This document shows positions 26,926 to 58,011 of a stretch of DNA of 58,036 nucleotides, piece by piece. The stretch lies in the NCBI GenBank assembly GCA_023138875.1, contig JAGLOO010000047.1, positions 90,056-148,091 of the forward strand. Direction: 5' to 3'. The stretch is from Bacteroidales bacterium. GTDB taxonomy: Bacteria; Bacteroidota; Bacteroidia; Bacteroidales; GCA-2748055. Position 1 is the stretch's first letter, and each line of letters starts with the position of its first letter. The notes beneath the pieces were generated by a model. The model was given only the letters and a program-made list of their open reading frames with translations, made no database searches and was not told the DNA's origin. The translations under genes were made by a program, and so were the position numbers.

Positions 26926-27939
26926 TTATAAACTCTTCAACCAACCAAGAAGGTTTTCATTGTTTTCCCAGAACGGTTCTTCTTTAGGAGCGACATCAAC
27001 GTAAGCCTTTTCAATTGCTTCTCGTTTCAATTTAGAGTCAGCTCTGGCATAAATTTCGGTCGTTTGGACAGATACATGCCCAAGAATATCCCTTATATAT
27101 ACCAAGTTCACTCCAGCCTGTAGCAGATGCATTGCTTTAGAGCTGCGTAAGGAATGGCAACTTAATTTCTCAGGTATAAGCTTTGGATCCATTTTTCTGG
27201 CTTTCTCTGCATGTTTCAACAAAATATGTGTGACCCCTGCACGCGTCAATTTTTCGTGACGACTATTGAAAAACAAAGGATATGATCTTGTCTGTAGCTT
27301 GAGCAAATCAAATTCGATCAAGTAATTCCGTAAAATTTTGACCTGCTCTTCCAATAGAGGGACAATTCGGGTTTTATTACCCTTACCAGTAATTTGTATT
27401 GTATATGGTTTGTCAAGGTGGATTGCCGAAGAAGTCAGGTCTATCAGTTCCTGAACCCGTGCTCCGGTATCGTACATAAGCGATAATAGTGCCAGATCCC
27501 GGCGCCCTCTTTTTTTAGTTACATCTGGTTGTTCAAGAAGCAACTTAATGCCGTCTACCGTAAGATAATTAAACGCTTTTTTCCTGACTTTTTTTACTTT
27601 GATAGACATGATATCCTGATATCCGTACAAGTTATCAGGGTACTGGTACTGAACGTATTTGAAGAAGGAATGTAATGCTGCAAGTCGCAGGTTTCTTGTT
27701 GTATCACTACATTTTCGTTCCGATTGCAGCCAATCCAGGAATTCAACAACAGAAGCTTTGGTTATTGATTTTATAAACAGCTTCTCAGCCTTTATATTCC
27801 TGACTTGATGCATAAAGTTTATAAAAAGGACAAAGGTATCCCGGTAAGCTATAATTGTATTAGAACTGTAGCCTCTTTCATGATACAAGTATCTCGTGAG
27901 GTAGTCTGTCAGATATTTTGAAAAATCAGTCGGTTTCAT
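26926..27939 (-). CDS. Tyrosine recombinase (RIT-like, last gene of the set)
   Basis: A 337-residue tyrosine recombinase. The N-terminal SAM-like core-binding domain (residues about 1-110, YSSNTIIAYRDTFVLFI, TTRNLRLAALHSFFKYVQ) is followed by the catalytic domain with Arg in TGARVQEL, His-x-x-Arg in CHSLRSSKA, LGHVSVQTT and the nucleophile Tyr in EIYAR. It overlaps by 14 bases the end of a further recombinase gene. That layout fits recombinase-in-trio elements, which carry three overlapping recombinases. Confidence 0.85.
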   Translation of the reverse strand: MKPTDFSKYLTDYLTRYLYHERGYSSNTIIAYRDTFVLFINFMHQVRNIKAEKLFIKSITKASVVEFLDWLQSERKCSDTTRNLRLAALHSFFKYVQYQYPDNLYGYQDIMSIKVKKVRKKAFNYLTVDGIKLLLEQPDVTKKRGRRDLALLSLMYDTGARVQELIDLTSSAIHLDKPYTIQITGKGNKTRIVPLLEEQVKILRNYLIEFDLLKLQTRSYPLFFNSRHEKLTRAGVTHILLKHAEKARKMDPKLIPEKLSCHSLRSSKAMHLLQAGVNLVYIRDILGHVSVQTTEIYARADSKLKREAIEKAYVDVAPKEEPFWENNENLLGWLKSL

Positions 27940-28161
27940 AGTTTTTTACATTAGGAAATACATTCAAACAAATCATATCAACGTCTTTAAGAAGACCTGG
28001 ATACATTGCAGCAGTCAGCCTTACATATCTATTTGTTGAGCTTAAAGATAGATGGCCGAGATACGTGGACAGGACTGGCAATGAAGTATACAGATCGACA
28101 CCAGATTCAGCCATATTTGCTAATGAATGACAGGAAAAAGTATGGCGAACAAAATCCAAAC
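27926..28161 (-). pseudogene. 3' fragment of a second tyrosine recombinase (minus copy)
   Basis: Read on the minus strand from the palindrome at 28161, the frame gives LDFVRHTFSCHSLANMAESG, LPVLSTYLGHLSLSST and the nucleophile region NRYVRL, the C-terminal third of a tyrosine recombinase. The 5' part is missing. It overlaps the downstream recombinase start, so the two belonged to one operon. It begins at the same codon as the opposite-strand fragment at 28164. Confidence 0.8.
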
Positions 28162-28172
28162 GTTTGGATTTT
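28151..28172. repeat. 22-bp perfect palindrome joining two recombinase modules
   Basis: AAAATCCAAAC is followed immediately by its complement, centred between 28161 and 28162. It is the exact junction of the head-to-head recombinase fragments. The same 22 bases recur inside a 30-bp palindrome at 55779-55808, again at the broken edge of a mobile-element gene. Confidence 0.9.
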
Positions 28173-28385
28173 ATTCGGCACACTTTCGCAGTTAACGCCT
28201 TTAAACAGATGATAGACAATGGAATGGATATGTACGTAGCCCTTCCAATCTTGTCTACATACCTTGGTCATAAAACTATAATGGCAACAGAACGTTATCT
28301 GAGACTTACAGTGAGTATGTTTCCGTATCTCGAAAAGAAGTTCGGTAAAACTCTTAACGAAGTCTTTGGGGAGGATCAGAAATGA
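28162..28385 (+). pseudogene. 3' fragment of a second tyrosine recombinase (plus copy)
   Basis: From the palindrome the plus strand reads LDFIRHTFAVNAFKQMIDNG, LPILSTYLGHKTIMAT and ERYLRL, the same C-terminal third as the minus-strand fragment but clearly a different gene. The stop overlaps the start of the next recombinase as ATGA. The 5' two thirds are missing. Confidence 0.8.
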
Positions 28386-29413
28386 AAGTTACCGACTTTG
28401 CCAGGGCGCTCAACCGCTACTTTAACGACTACCTTGTTAATGACAGAGGCAGTTCACCAAGGACGATAGAGACATATAGATATGCCTTTATACAGTTGGT
28501 AGAGTACCTTGAAGAGCGAAAAAGAATCAGGCCAGAGAGAATCCGGATAAATGACATAAACAGAGATAACATAATGTCGTTCTTGTTATGGTTAGAAGAG
28601 TCCCAGAAGGTGTCTCCGGCAACCAGAAATCAACGTCTTGCCGCCTTCCGTTGCTTCGCAGCGTTCTTGAAATACGAAAGACCAGAATACATTGAGGCTG
28701 CAACTCAGATCCAGGGGATAAAGCCCAAGAAATCTGGGCAGAAAGACATCTCTTACCTTAAACCAGAGGGCATGAAGCTTCTTCTAAGCCAAATAGATAG
28801 GTCCACTATCAGTGGAAGGCGGGACTACGCGATGATCTACGTTATGTATACTACCGGTGTGAGGGTGAGTGAACTTATATCAATACGAGGATGTGACATC
28901 TCCTTAAGCAATCCCAAAACGATAATCATCCATGGGAAGGGTCGAAAAATACGTCATGTACCTATTGTCAAACAAACCGCACCAATTTTGGAACGATACC
29001 TAAAAGTGAATAAATGCTTACTCCCACAGAGCCTGGATGAGTATATCTTCCTAAACCACTCTGGCGAAATGTTCACAAGGCAAGGAGTAAACTATATAAT
29101 CTCAAAATATGCTCGAATGGCAAGAACTATAGATCCATCCCTAATACCACAAGACTGTAGCCCTCATAAGATCAGGCACTCATCTGCTATGGCTTTGGTT
29201 GAAGAAGGAGTAGACTTGATAATCATACGAGACCTGCTGGGACACTCTAGTGTACAAACTACTGAAATATATGCAAAGGTATCTTCTGCAAGACAAAGGC
29301 GAGCAATAGAGGCCGCCAGCAAAGAAATCGTATCGGAAGAGGATGCCTTGTGGGAAAACAGCACTAGTATAAAAGACTGGCTTACGGGACTATCTGCTCA
29401 CAAAGTTATGTAA
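28382..29413 (+). CDS. Tyrosine recombinase (RIT-like, last gene of the set)
   Basis: A 343-residue tyrosine recombinase related to, but clearly different from, the one at 26926 (by eye roughly 40% identical). The core-binding domain has SSPRTIETYRYAFIQLVEYL and SPATRNQRLAAFRCFAAFL. The catalytic residues are Arg in TGVRVSEL, His-x-x-Arg in PHKIRHSSA, LGHSSVQTT and Tyr in EIYAK. It is coupled to the preceding fragment by an ATGA overlap. Its stop lies inside an inverted-repeat arm at 29405-29415. Confidence 0.88.
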   Translation: MKVTDFARALNRYFNDYLVNDRGSSPRTIETYRYAFIQLVEYLEERKRIRPERIRINDINRDNIMSFLLWLEESQKVSPATRNQRLAAFRCFAAFLKYERPEYIEAATQIQGIKPKKSGQKDISYLKPEGMKLLLSQIDRSTISGRRDYAMIYVMYTTGVRVSELISIRGCDISLSNPKTIIIHGKGRKIRHVPIVKQTAPILERYLKVNKCLLPQSLDEYIFLNHSGEMFTRQGVNYIISKYARMARTIDPSLIPQDCSPHKIRHSSAMALVEEGVDLIIIRDLLGHSSVQTTEIYAKVSSARQRRAIEAASKEIVSEEDALWENSTSIKDWLTGLSAHKVM

Positions 29414-30820: not shown

Positions 30821-31583
30821 TTACATAACTATATACTTGTCATAACCTTTACTCTCGGGATCAGATTTGCGGCAAAAATGAAGCTTGAAGCCTCTGTACG
30901 CTACATAACTCCTGAAAGCATCCGTTAAGATCAGTTCACCCTTATTCTCATTCACCAACATCAAAGTATCCTGATCATAGACCATTACCTCCGGGATCCC
31001 ACCAAAGTGTTGAAAAGCCTTCTCGTGTGCAATAATGGTCATCAGAGTGGTAAATGGCTTTTCTGAAAGAAATAGAAACTTAAAGCGTGAACGGCAAAGA
31101 GACATGCAAAAAAAGTAAACCTTCTTGCGCTTGTTTTCCTCGGTGGTCATGTTGTACTCACCAAAGTCCACCTGGGCCTGCTTGCCATAGGGAAGCTCAT
31201 CAACCTTTTCATAATCACGCTGATTACAAAATGGTTTTGGGATGCCATGCTTGCCCCTGACATGCAACACAAAATTGAAAACTGTCTTCTCTGTCACATT
31301 TGGCAGATCAGTAAAATGCTCCTTTAGCCAGTCATGAACCTGGGCAGCTGAAGCCTCAGGACAGGCTTCCAGCCTGCTTTTTATAAAAACCTCATATGGG
31401 TCAAGCACCTTGTTCTGGATTGTCAGGCTCTCCTGATAATCCAGGTATTCCTGTTCACTCTGGGTAAGGATCTTTTTTACTGTCCGTGGGTCCAATACCA
31501 AGTATCTGGCTGGGCCTATTGCCCTCTCTGTAAAGTCGGTGTATTTCGTGATACATAATCAGTTTATCCATTAATCGTTTCAT
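30821..31583 (-). pseudogene. istA: IS21 istA, frameshifted and 3' truncated
   Basis: IstA is the IS21 transposase. The N-terminal helix-turn-helix region (MDKLIMYHEIHRLYREG) is readable from 31571, or from 31583 if the earlier ATG is used. It is then out of frame with RYLVLDPRTVKKILTQSEQEY, so there is a frameshift near 31515. The core contains QAQVDFGEY (first Asp) and PEVMVYDQDTLM (second Asp). It breaks off at PESKG, just before the third catalytic region, where the recombinase-element end begins. It faces away from both istB halves, so it belongs to another IS21 copy. Confidence 0.85.
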
Positions 31584-31725
31584 GAGAGTTGATTGTTGAT
31601 GAGTATCAGTAAAATACGCCTTACAATCAAAATCTCATTTGACCTCAAAGGCAAAGTCGACTTTGCCTTTGAGGTCACTACTAAAAAACTATCATGGAAA
31701 AAGGAGAAATTGGAATGAAAACTTA

Positions 31726-31832
31726 CATTCCTATTTTCTGAAAATTCGCATTTCTATTTTCTGAAATCCTGCATTCCTGCTTTCTGAAAATCTGCATTTC
31801 TATTTTCCAAAAACTCGCATTGTTATTTACCG
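31726..31832. repeat. 23-bp tandem repeats, IS21-type left end
   Basis: Four full units of exactly 23 bp (starting 31726, 31749, 31772 and 31795, consensus CATTYCTATTTTCTGAAAAT plus three bases) and a partial fifth to 31832. They lie upstream of istA on its strand and end where the istB 3' half resumes. IS21 elements carry such multiple end repeats as transposase sites. About 140 bases between 31584 and 31725 show no gene. Confidence 0.8.
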
Positions 31833-32201: not shown

Positions 32202-32329
32202 GAACAGGTGTCCGTTTTGACCAGGAACAACTGTCCGGATAACTCAGGAATGAGTGTCCGCTTTCAGCAGGAACAGGTGTCCGAATAACTCAGGACCGGC
32301 TGTCCGCTTTCAGCGGGAACGAGTGTCCG
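32202..32329 (+). repeat. 23-bp tandem repeats, IS21-type right end
   Basis: Five 23-bp units starting at 32202, 32225, 32248, 32271 and 32294 and a partial sixth, each with a GNNNNNNTGTCCG core. Alternate units end in ATAACTCAG or CTTTCAGCAG, giving a 46-bp super-period. They directly follow istB and mark the right end of that IS21 copy. The same repeat type occurs near 55385-55430. Confidence 0.85.
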
Positions 32330-55500: not shown

Positions 55501-55793
55501 CTACCCGGCTTCTTTTTTCTTATCGACGGTGTTTTCTGCATATTTTTTCTGTAACAGGTCACTTTGGTATTTGCGGTAGCTGGGGCCGTAGATTTTCACG
55601 ATTACTGAGTGATGGAAGATGCGGTCCAGGATCGCACTTGTAGAGATTGGATCCCCCAGGAACTCCGGCCAGTCTTCCTCCTCGATGTTGGAGGTAAAGA
55701 TTAAGGACTTGTTCTCCTTGTAGCGCTGATCGATCACCTTGAACAGTAAATGAGCCTCCTTCACCACCTGTAATTCCAGACGAAAATCCAAAC
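55501..55793 (-). pseudogene. istB: IS21 istB, C-terminal fragment
   Basis: The frame reads LQVVKEAHLLFKVIDQRYKE, KSLIFTSNIEEEDWPEFLGD (sensor-1 region) and AILDRIFHHSVIVKIYGPSY, the C-terminal third of an IstB ATPase. The Walker A and Walker B parts are missing. It begins at the centre of the 30-bp palindrome, so the break and the palindrome coincide. Confidence 0.82.
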
Positions 55794-55808
55794 GTTTGGA
55801 TTTTCGTC
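55779..55808. repeat. 30-bp perfect palindrome at the broken end of istB
   Basis: GACGAAAATCCAAAC is followed directly by its complement, centred between 55793 and 55794. Its inner 22 bases are identical to the palindrome at 28151-28172. Confidence 0.9.
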
Positions 55809-56021
55809 AGCGATTCCGCTTCGCTCCATTTTCTGATGTCTATTATTTTTGATTCAAGAATAGAGCATAACTATCCAGTCCGATAGCCCTGTTCGCCTGT
55901 CGGTTAGTTGTTTTTGCGATGGGTTTTTTTAAGTTTTTCTCCTTTCTGTTTTTCGGTTGTTGTTCCCAATGATGGAGTGGGATATCTCCTGCCACTTAGT
56001 GTTGTGGCGCAGTACACCGGG

Positions 56022-57335
56022 CTAATATCTGAACTGCCCAATTGACGCGATCAGCCTGAGTATCTTGGATTTCCCCAACTTCATTGTCATCATTGTAGCA
56101 AGTCCGAACTCCCCGAGGGAAGCCATGGTCTCTTTTTTGTCTCTGAAGAATGCTTCCCTGACATGTTTTGCCAGGTAGGCCAACTGATCTATCATGTGAG
56201 CTATTTGCAGGCACTGGTAGTAATTGCATGTGGCCACAGGCGACACCCTTGAGTATTTGTGTGATAACCCGTAGCCCTCATTTTTCTGAGCATTGAACCC
56301 TTCGTTTTCTATGGTCCAGCGCAACCTGCCGCACCTGCTGATATCTTTGCAGTTATCCCTGTTTAACAAGATGTCGGTAATGTGCACGAACCTCTCCTTT
56401 TCAGCAGTGTTTGCTCTCTCTTTGTCGGATGTATGCTGCTCCCTTGTAATATCCAAGTCCACCAGGTGAAGCGTATGGGTTTTGTATGGGACATTGTTTA
56501 AGAACCGGTAATTGTGTATCTCCCACCAGTTACCCTTCTTGCATTGCCAACTGACTGTGTTATCCCTGGTTATGCGCCAGAGAAAATCAACTTCCTCCCA
56601 TACGCTTTTCAGGTTACCATCTTTGAACGTAAAGATGAAGCGGTAATCATATTTCAGGCAAGTATTAAAAACCGTGTTGTTCGGGTACAGACCATCGGCC
56701 AGGAGCAGGATCGGCAGGCGGGGATACAGCTTCTTGAGTTTTTTGGCCAACCTTATAAAAGCGTTCATCTCACAGTCTTGTTTGTCGTAGTTGCCGTGTT
56801 CGGGGTTGCGTATCCATTCGGTGGCAATGGATATACTAAAGCCGTTGGGACACACGATCTTGGCCTCAAGTACGTAGACCGTATAGGTTGTCTTCCCACT
56901 CTTGGATGTCTTTTTCGGGCATCCGGGATATGGCTCGTAGTCATAACTGTGAAGTCCTGTGCCATCCACTGCCACGCTGTGATAAAGTCCATCGAAACGG
57001 AACTTGTCGAACACTTTCCTACGCACCAAAATCCTGACCATCTCCTGTTTGAGCCTCTCAAGGCCTTCTTGCGGTAATTTCCGCAACAATTTGTCACAGG
57101 TGTCTGTGTCGGGGAGCCGACAACCAAATACCCTCTCGTAGTTGGCTGCAAAGCGACCCTTCCGGGAAAGGTTGTCCATGCCGTTACGCGAGCCGCGCTT
57201 GAACAGGAATATGGCTATAGCGGCCATCAGCACCTCCTCGGTCTTGTAATCGGGAGACTTCCGGTTATCGGGAAGTGAGGAAAGCATCACAAGGAATTGG
57301 GGGAAGTGTCTGTTCAGGGCAATAGCTGTTTGCAT
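56022..57335 (-). CDS. DDE transposase, IS4-like/ISNCY-like
   Basis: A 437-residue transposase. The N-terminal helical region (SLPDNRKSPDYKTEEVLMAA, RLPDTDTCDKLLRKLP) is followed by the catalytic core with Asp in HSVAVDGTGLHSYDY, Asp in LPILLLADGLYPNN and Glu in RLRWTIENEGFNAQKNEGYG. The frame is complete. I could not find convincing inverted repeats, so the element limits are open. Exact family is uncertain. Confidence 0.82.
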   Translation of the reverse strand: MQTAIALNRHFPQFLVMLSSLPDNRKSPDYKTEEVLMAAIAIFLFKRGSRNGMDNLSRKGRFAANYERVFGCRLPDTDTCDKLLRKLPQEGLERLKQEMVRILVRRKVFDKFRFDGLYHSVAVDGTGLHSYDYEPYPGCPKKTSKSGKTTYTVYVLEAKIVCPNGFSISIATEWIRNPEHGNYDKQDCEMNAFIRLAKKLKKLYPRLPILLLADGLYPNNTVFNTCLKYDYRFIFTFKDGNLKSVWEEVDFLWRITRDNTVSWQCKKGNWWEIHNYRFLNNVPYKTHTLHLVDLDITREQHTSDKERANTAEKERFVHITDILLNRDNCKDISRCGRLRWTIENEGFNAQKNEGYGLSHKYSRVSPVATCNYYQCLQIAHMIDQLAYLAKHVREAFFRDKKETMASLGEFGLATMMTMKLGKSKILRLIASIGQFRY

Positions 57336-57766
57336 CGCGAAGCAGAACCCCTGGTAACAGCTTAGTTTTTCCCTGCATCCATTGCGCTTTTGTTCTTTGT
57401 TCTTCTTTTTGTTTCTCTTCTAAAAAAGGTGGAAAAAAATATCGAAAATTACAAAACAAAATACCCGAAAAACTTGCGCATTACGTTTATTGTCAGTACT
57501 TTAAAGGTGTAATAAAAAAACGCCAGTGAAATAGGTGGACCCCTCCTGGCGTTTTAAAAAATAAAAAATGAAACCACAACATTATTTGTCTGGCGGTAGC
57601 GCCGCCTTTGTACGAGCCTGATAATGAAGCGGCTACAAAGGCAATATAAATAATGGTGTCACAGTAAAGTTAGTGCGAAAATTATTTCTCTCAAAATTTT
57701 TCTATAGCTTAATTTTCAGACTATTACGGAAATGCTAATTTACAAGCGGAATTGCTGATTTTCGTC
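57336..57766. other. Structured non-coding region between transposase and intron fragment
   Basis: No gene is supported. A perfect 10-bp stem (AAAACGCCAG at 57517-57526 with its complement at 57546-57555, flanked by A and T runs) looks like a bidirectional terminator. A second perfect 9-bp stem (GCCTTTGTA at 57604-57612, TACAAAGGC at 57634-57642) with nearby GGCGG/CCGCC pairing suggests a structured RNA or an element end. Confidence 0.5.
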
Positions 57767-58011
57767 TAATTAAAGCAGTGAGAAAGCATACTGACTGCAA
57801 ATGGGTATTGCTGTATATCAAAAGGTGGATTATAGCCCCTTATCAGCACGCAGATGGAAGTCTTACAGAAAGGAAGAAAGGCATTCCGCAGGGTGCGGTA
57901 ATAAGCCCTCTGCTGGCAAATCTATTTCTACACTACTGTATGGACGAATGGCTTCGGATGTACTATCCTGAGAACTACTCCCCACCTTTAGACAACGAAA
58001 TTCAAATATAA
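57767..58011 (+). pseudogene. Group II intron reverse transcriptase/maturase fragment
   Basis: About 80 codons: AVRKHTDCKWVLLYIKRWI, then LTERKKGIPQGAVISPLLAN and LFLHYCMDEWLRMYYPEN, the reverse-transcriptase blocks just before the catalytic YADD. The family sequence ends at MYYPEN, and a stop follows eight codons later, so YADD is missing. The 5' part is missing too, cut near 57767. Confidence 0.88.

Follow-up and report, generated by a model that had tools for sequence, protein, structure and literature searches.

A 22-bp end palindrome of recombinases-in-trio elements probably joined pairs of target genes head to head in a Bacteroidales genome

The window, a stretch of 58,036 nucleotides from a Bacteroidales bacterium, carries two copies of the 22-bp palindrome AAAATCCAAACGTTTGGATTTT (hereafter PAL), at 28151-28172 and 55783-55804. 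Judged by its surroundings in other genomes, PAL is the end palindrome of RIT (recombinases-in-trio) elements. At both window sites two different genes meet head to head through PAL, and the element itself is absent. As the likely explanation, we propose that the RIT end palindrome has two crossover cores, and that each window site is a scar of the form target C half-PAL-target C half (C-PAL-C), left when an element recombined with two targets. Probably one PAL joined the two targets and the intervening DNA was deleted.

Site 1 is a perfect 22-bp palindrome. The original prediction placed it exactly where two recombinase fragments meet head to head, and both the coordinates and the fragments were borne out. 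The features of site 1 are:

26926-27939, reverse strand: complete tyrosine recombinase that comes after the left C half and is the third gene of a broken trio
27926-28150, reverse strand: tyrosine recombinase, the second in another recombinase trio; C-terminal (RHTF-side) half only
28147-28150, reverse strand: 4-bp core on the left side, GTTC read outward
28151-28172, no strand: PAL, RIT end palindrome of two back-to-back GTTTGGATTTT arms
28173-28176, forward strand: 4-bp core on the right side, ATTC read outward
28173-28385, forward strand: another, different tyrosine recombinase; C-terminal (RHTF-side) half only
28382-29413, forward strand: complete tyrosine recombinase that comes after the right C half and is the third gene of a second broken trio

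The left fragment matches Pfam Phage_integrase weakly (E 0.0013, below the curated cut-off) and shares 48% identity with an intact recombinase. The right fragment gave no match in the Pfam search and is 43-53% identical to intact recombinases of 340-416 aa. Site 1 has PAL in the middle, a C half on each side of it and a third recombinase beyond each C half; the N halves and the first genes of two divergent trios are absent. When the same genome was searched for the recombinase N half, no orphan turned up; the only match was a third paralogue, itself intact, on contig C47.

Site 2 lies ~2.2 kb from the end of contig C42, as the window terminates that contig. It is a 30-bp palindrome (55779-55808), the inner 22 bp of which are PAL. 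The longer palindrome, the shared 22-bp core and the cut in istB all stand as originally described, except that base 55808 belongs to an IS. The features of site 2 are:

55501-55782, reverse strand: istB (encoding the IS21 helper ATPase), C-terminal part, cut at HD|RL|ELQ
55779-55782, reverse strand: 4-bp core on the left side, CGTC read outward; the right side was identical before the IS
55783-55804, no strand: PAL, RIT end palindrome
55800-55807, forward strand: 8-bp IS duplication ATTTTCGT, left copy, lying in PAL and the core
55808-57757, reverse strand: IS, a later insertion into the palindrome's right half; it encodes a 437-aa transposase (56022-57335)
57758-57765, forward strand: right copy of the 8-bp IS duplication ATTTTCGT
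57766-58011, forward strand: fragment of a group II intron reverse transcriptase, the right arm

The left arm, at 55783, is the end of istB (Pfam IstB_IS21, profile positions 170-235 of 238). Three istB relatives of 65-78% identity (loci L048, L049 and L050) are uninterrupted at the cut HD|RL|ELQ, and their alignments to the window istB start exactly past the palindrome. The missing N half of istB was not found in the same genome, where the best match has 25% identity. The reverse-transcriptase fragment matches NCBIfam TIGR04416 with an E of 6e-18, which is, for a fragment, below the family cut-off; we take intact group II reverse transcriptases to read DHD at the position of its cut. The left end of the IS, from 55808, recurs at three further places in the genome. 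The order was istB C part, PAL, reverse-transcriptase fragment, subsequently split by the IS. Because the palindrome abutted the fragment now beyond the IS, site 2 also joins two genes head to head.

PAL is rare in and around this genome. The 22-mer search of its own and related genomes advised at the outset found only the two window copies in its own genome (4,787,027 bases in 87 contigs, up to 2 mismatches), and none in any of 27 other genomes of the family at up to 1 mismatch. None of 100 dinucleotide shuffles of the window gave a match to PAL at up to 3 mismatches. Both window strands at PAL fold as hairpins, with z scores of -3.8 and -4.9.

An exact scan of genome contigs (about 85,000 genomes, 257 Gb) revealed 28 further copies, spread over Bacillota, Bacteroidota, Desulfocapsaceae, Synergistaceae and others, compared to about 0.015 expected by chance for a given 22-mer (by arithmetic, with equal base frequencies). 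Viral contigs gave no match to the 22-mer and seven to an 18-mer, the flanks of which, inspected by eye, are unlike RIT ends. RIT ends, RIT remnants or junctions of two target halves account for 26 of the 28 copies. PAL lies 4 bp from a RIT end repeat in 18 of the 28 by script, or in 19 with L024, judged by eye. In L020 it accompanies a truncated RIT, and in the mini-elements L010 (797-835) and L021 (4673-4711) it is followed at once by the other RIT end repeat, and no gene lies between them. The outer cores of these mini-elements are both TCAT in L010 and mismatched in L021. In L004, L006, L007 and L016, target halves flank PAL on both sides and the element is absent. Only L009 (position 6876) and L022 (6945), both from Alistipes MAGs, carry exact PAL beside neither element nor target half, and are perhaps terminators; the 22-mer is thus not common at unbroken places, whereas its wide occurrence there had been named as the result that would refute a specific signal. 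A chance palindrome such as a transcription terminator, placed at two unrelated breaks, could draw on these Alistipes copies and on the hairpin folding, but is scarcely credible given the 26 copies tied to RITs or lying between two target halves, the tiny chance expectation and the target halves that flank both window sites.

The source of PAL was identified from a second repeat, GGTTTGGATTTT-N6-GTTTGGATAAC, which lies four bases from many PAL copies. Three overlapping recombinase genes sit between two such repeats, an arrangement that fits the published RIT elements. An integrated copy reads target C half, 4 bp, PAL, 4 bp, RIT, 4 bp, target N half. All 15 loci examined contain the recombinase trio; in L026, for example, the three proteins have 420, 316 and 349 aa, their genes overlap by 4 bp, and all match Pfam Phage_integrase. 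Seven of eight measured elements are 3430-3461 bp long, and the eighth (L111, 3195-7722), with a slightly different palindrome, spans 4528 bp, about 1.1 kb longer, and may carry extra genes. The outside RIT loci have terminal inverted repeats and an overlapping palindrome, and the catalytic Arg-His...Tyr residues form invariant columns in four-member alignments of RitA, RitB and RitC. RitA is described with two core-binding domains and RitC with an extra C-terminal helix (PMC8138268). Our RitA model has two successive helical bundles ahead of the catalytic part, but at a mean pLDDT of 57; the RitC alignment has a conserved C-terminal extension, but the structure model is too poor to use (mean pLDDT 41). 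The presence of copies in different targets of one chromosome suggests that RITs are mobile, a property that the RIT literature covered here does not demonstrate.

By contrast, the window sites lack a recombinase trio between end repeats. No RIT end repeat was found beside either window PAL, and no close relative of RitB in the genome (best 24% identity), so the two sites appear to be scars rather than RIT members. The original prediction had offered a scar or target of an unknown element. The scar fits best, as PAL is a RIT end palindrome with no element end adjacent, but the element is not unknown, RITs having been published. A pre-existing target was rejected, as the intact relatives examined of both the istB and the recombinase genes carry no PAL at the junction.

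Further analysis revealed where RITs insert and on which side PAL comes to lie. In most copies, the far side of PAL is a tyrosine-recombinase gene opened at its RH codons, and the opposite element end, where seen, adjoins HD codons from a gene of this type. The uninterrupted relatives L060, L061 and L062 have HD|LR|HTF, HD|LR|HSF and HD|IR|HSY. Other target halves belong to PDDEXK_2 nuclease-transposase genes (L006 and L018) and a DUF2785 gene (L006), and that of L016 gives a weak resolvase match (E 0.025). Each distinct flank was counted a single time. The HD-half motif RTCRTG, with 1 mismatch allowed, comes directly after the core at 14 of the 16 PAL-free ends versus 1 of 19 with PAL, and the RH-half motif GNCAY at 15 of 19 ends with PAL versus 4 of 16 without; further out in the same flanks, both motifs have a background of 0.2-1.6%. 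The recombinases of RITs have RH motifs of their own (FHIFRHH, AYELRHH and HAHQLRHAK) with no HD before LRH, which is possibly a form of self-avoidance. Absence of the target motif from 8 elements is itself uninformative, since only about 0.05 per element is expected by chance.

The side of PAL is set by the target, not by the element. Across the 15 trio loci, PAL lies at the ritC end in eight, at the ritA end in four, at both in two (L020 and L112) and at neither in one (L106). PAL faces the same (C) target half whichever direction the element points. One Salegentibacter chromosome (a MAG) has PAL at ritC in three copies (L107, L109 and L110) and at ritA in one (L108), and the order ritA end, TAAG, PAL, ACCT, ritC end is constant among them, as expected from one circle inserted through either core. 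Here the broken recombinase N halves of L106, L107, L109 and L110 contain a second insertion, that of a 352-aa gene which by eye looks like an IS110-type transposase; L108 does not. Elements with different palindromes, of which TTATGCGCAGCTGCGCATAA is an example, behave alike. On Sagittula/Paracoccus plasmids the palindrome faces the same target half in 6 of 6 copies, three at each element end (6 of 7 records examined, among the 40 matches listed of 2498), and in Salipiger in 3 of 3 (3 of 5 records examined, among the 40 matches listed of 2498), where the asymmetric centre of the palindrome keeps a fixed orientation relative to the element. In two Priestia plasmids that encode the same three proteins, the palindrome is at one element end in the first plasmid and at the other end in the second. 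Since the same target half is met at either element end, the palindrome should have an equivalent crossover core on each side, either of which can be used.

Three further architectures accompany the simple insertions. C-PAL-C is found at six sites, namely the two window sites, L004, L006, L007 and L016. The converse, N-RIT-N without PAL, occurs in L106 on the Salegentibacter chromosome with two different target genes; there the RIT is flanked on each side by an N half and then a first gene, the mirror image of site 1. L112 and L020 have a double PAL with C halves on both sides. In addition, Aromatoleum plasmid 2, named for complex RIT combinations in the part of PMC3414803 covered, holds a trio between two inward-facing recombinase genes with matching ends, in which no palindrome of at least 18 bp was found.

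The identity of PAL, its 4-bp spacing, the side rule and these three architectures can be read directly from the sequences; the circle, the order of steps and the choice of deletion over inversion we infer. In this model PAL is built from two arms set back to back, and a 4-bp crossover core lies on either side of it. A palindrome of this kind implies a circular RIT with two equivalent attachment cores, arranged as end repeat, core, PAL, core, end repeat. Crossing over at one of the two cores would insert the circle into a target at HD|4 bp|, most often at HD|LR|HTF of a tyrosine recombinase, always with PAL toward the target C half. The remaining core, which sits between PAL and the end of the element, would survive intact, and its recombination with a second target would produce C-PAL-C and N-RIT-N in one further step. 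If the two targets face each other, the intervening DNA would be lost as a circle; if they point in the same direction, it would be inverted. Deletion is favoured, as each genome examined retains only one of the two products.

Searches for the partner product bear on this choice. No relic of it was found beside any C-PAL-C site, and we can therefore only infer that each arose in a single event. The RIT end pattern gave no match in the genomes of L004 and L007, one match in L018, beside L006, with the other end off the contig, and one match with 2 mismatches in the L016 genome, where the flank is unlike an element end. On the Salegentibacter chromosome, a search that used the C half from a single one of the two L106 genes did not find C halves matching the N-RIT-N; it found four C halves, all adjoining PAL. 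At up to 3 mismatches, that chromosome has no PAL beyond the four with elements, besides three diverged matches.

The same two-target recombination might instead have inverted the intervening DNA or exchanged sequence between replicons, leaving the N-RIT-N partner elsewhere. The geometry would equal that of deletion, and both assemblies of interest could miss replicons. Nevertheless, this outcome seems rather unlikely, as the window genome lacks the istB N half, an orphan recombinase N half and a close RIT relative, and the one-query search in Salegentibacter gave no matching C halves.

A second alternative, which we regard as improbable, is a route in two steps. Two RIT copies that carry PAL at opposite ends would first recombine homologously to yield C-PAL-RIT-PAL-C and N-RIT-N, and the recombinases would then excise the RIT with one PAL to leave C-PAL-C. 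Both intermediates exist (double PAL in L112 and L020, N-RIT-N in L106), copies of opposite polarity do occur together in one chromosome, and the N-RIT-N and double-PAL forms could indeed stem from homologous recombination. For the element-free C-PAL-C, however, homologous recombination alone is insufficient; the route requires two inserted copies and two events, and Salegentibacter has no double-PAL partner.

An assembly or amplification artefact at the palindrome, raised in the original prediction, is very unlikely. All six C-PAL-C sites come from draft assemblies, but they belong to five separate genomes, in which the same architecture is repeated with different gene pairs, and the arms obey the 4-bp spacing and the side rule. 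Moreover, the palindrome itself occurs in complete plasmids and complete chromosome records (L011 and L025-L030). A fold-back replication product, also raised there, would in the simple case give an arm and its own mirror image, whereas the arms here are different genes.

One feature is unexplained by the model of a circle with two cores. The two cores beside PAL, read outward, are identical at 8 of 23 junctions, compared to 1.14 expected by permutation, and none of 20,000 permutations reached eight; this count covers the window and L003-L029 after dropping L028 and L030 (same as L026), L009, L010, L020, L021 and L022. Hopping among similar targets may explain identical TTAA or TTTA, and less obviously identical CACG, CTGG, ATCG or CGTC. 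A more speculative idea, to which we give a low probability, is that RIT recombinases act on the palindrome folded as a hairpin and join two targets at once. The two 4-bp cores would then pair in an extended stem, and one would be copied onto the other. The excess of identical cores and the hairpin folding of both window strands support this reading. Folded hairpins serve as substrates in integron attC sites and telomere-resolvase sites. If true, RITs would be a class of tyrosine-recombinase element that moves and rearranges genomes via a palindromic attachment site with two sides.

Publications on RIT elements go back to about 2009-2010. The covered text of two papers describes them as three recombinases in about 3.5 kb whose ends carry an inverted repeat overlapped by a palindrome (PMC3414803), and reports them also in the C. 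metallidurans CH34 genome (PMC2864759). Our elements resemble these in the three adjacent overlapping genes, the size, the end repeat and palindrome, the several copies per genome and the insertion into genes of other mobile elements, whereas the window sites carry no RIT; the published ends are given there as variable, with no convincing binding sites (PMC3414803, PMC2864759). A 2023 comparison table, in the part covered, lists target specificity, empty site and movement of RITs as not tested (PMC10214605). The HD target, the 4-bp core, the side rule and the element-free scar are undescribed in the RIT literature covered, which does not include a 2013 paper; relative to the literature covered, the side rule and the scar appear to be new. 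Strand-biased circularizing integrative elements (SE) and GInt likewise have several tyrosine recombinases, imperfect inverted ends (PMC10214605, PMC5385486) and a short core carried as fingerprint and footprint, 6 bp in SE (PMC10214605). They differ in gene sets and sizes, and the covered text describes no two-core palindrome for them (PMC10214605).

The rule derived from the window, a palindrome with equivalent 4-bp cores, a side determined by the target and a 22-bp scar joining two genes, would explain the published variability of RIT ends and predicts deletions or inversions driven by RITs. Tn916-type elements carry along non-identical short coupling sequences, and IS-mediated adjacent deletions start at an integrated copy. 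Compared to both, the RIT palindrome would join two targets and leave a 22-bp scar free of the element. Such a scar could serve as a sequence tag of past RIT activity after the element is lost. Many of the genes seen as targets belong to other mobile elements, which makes RITs look like parasites of parasites.

The window contains a third perfect palindrome, of 38 bp (31640-31677), which is unrelated in sequence to PAL and lies upstream of an istA fragment (30821-31501). In addition, two clusters of 23-bp tandem repeats (31716-31830 and 32208-32322) lie on both sides of an istB fragment and are perhaps IS21-type end repeats.
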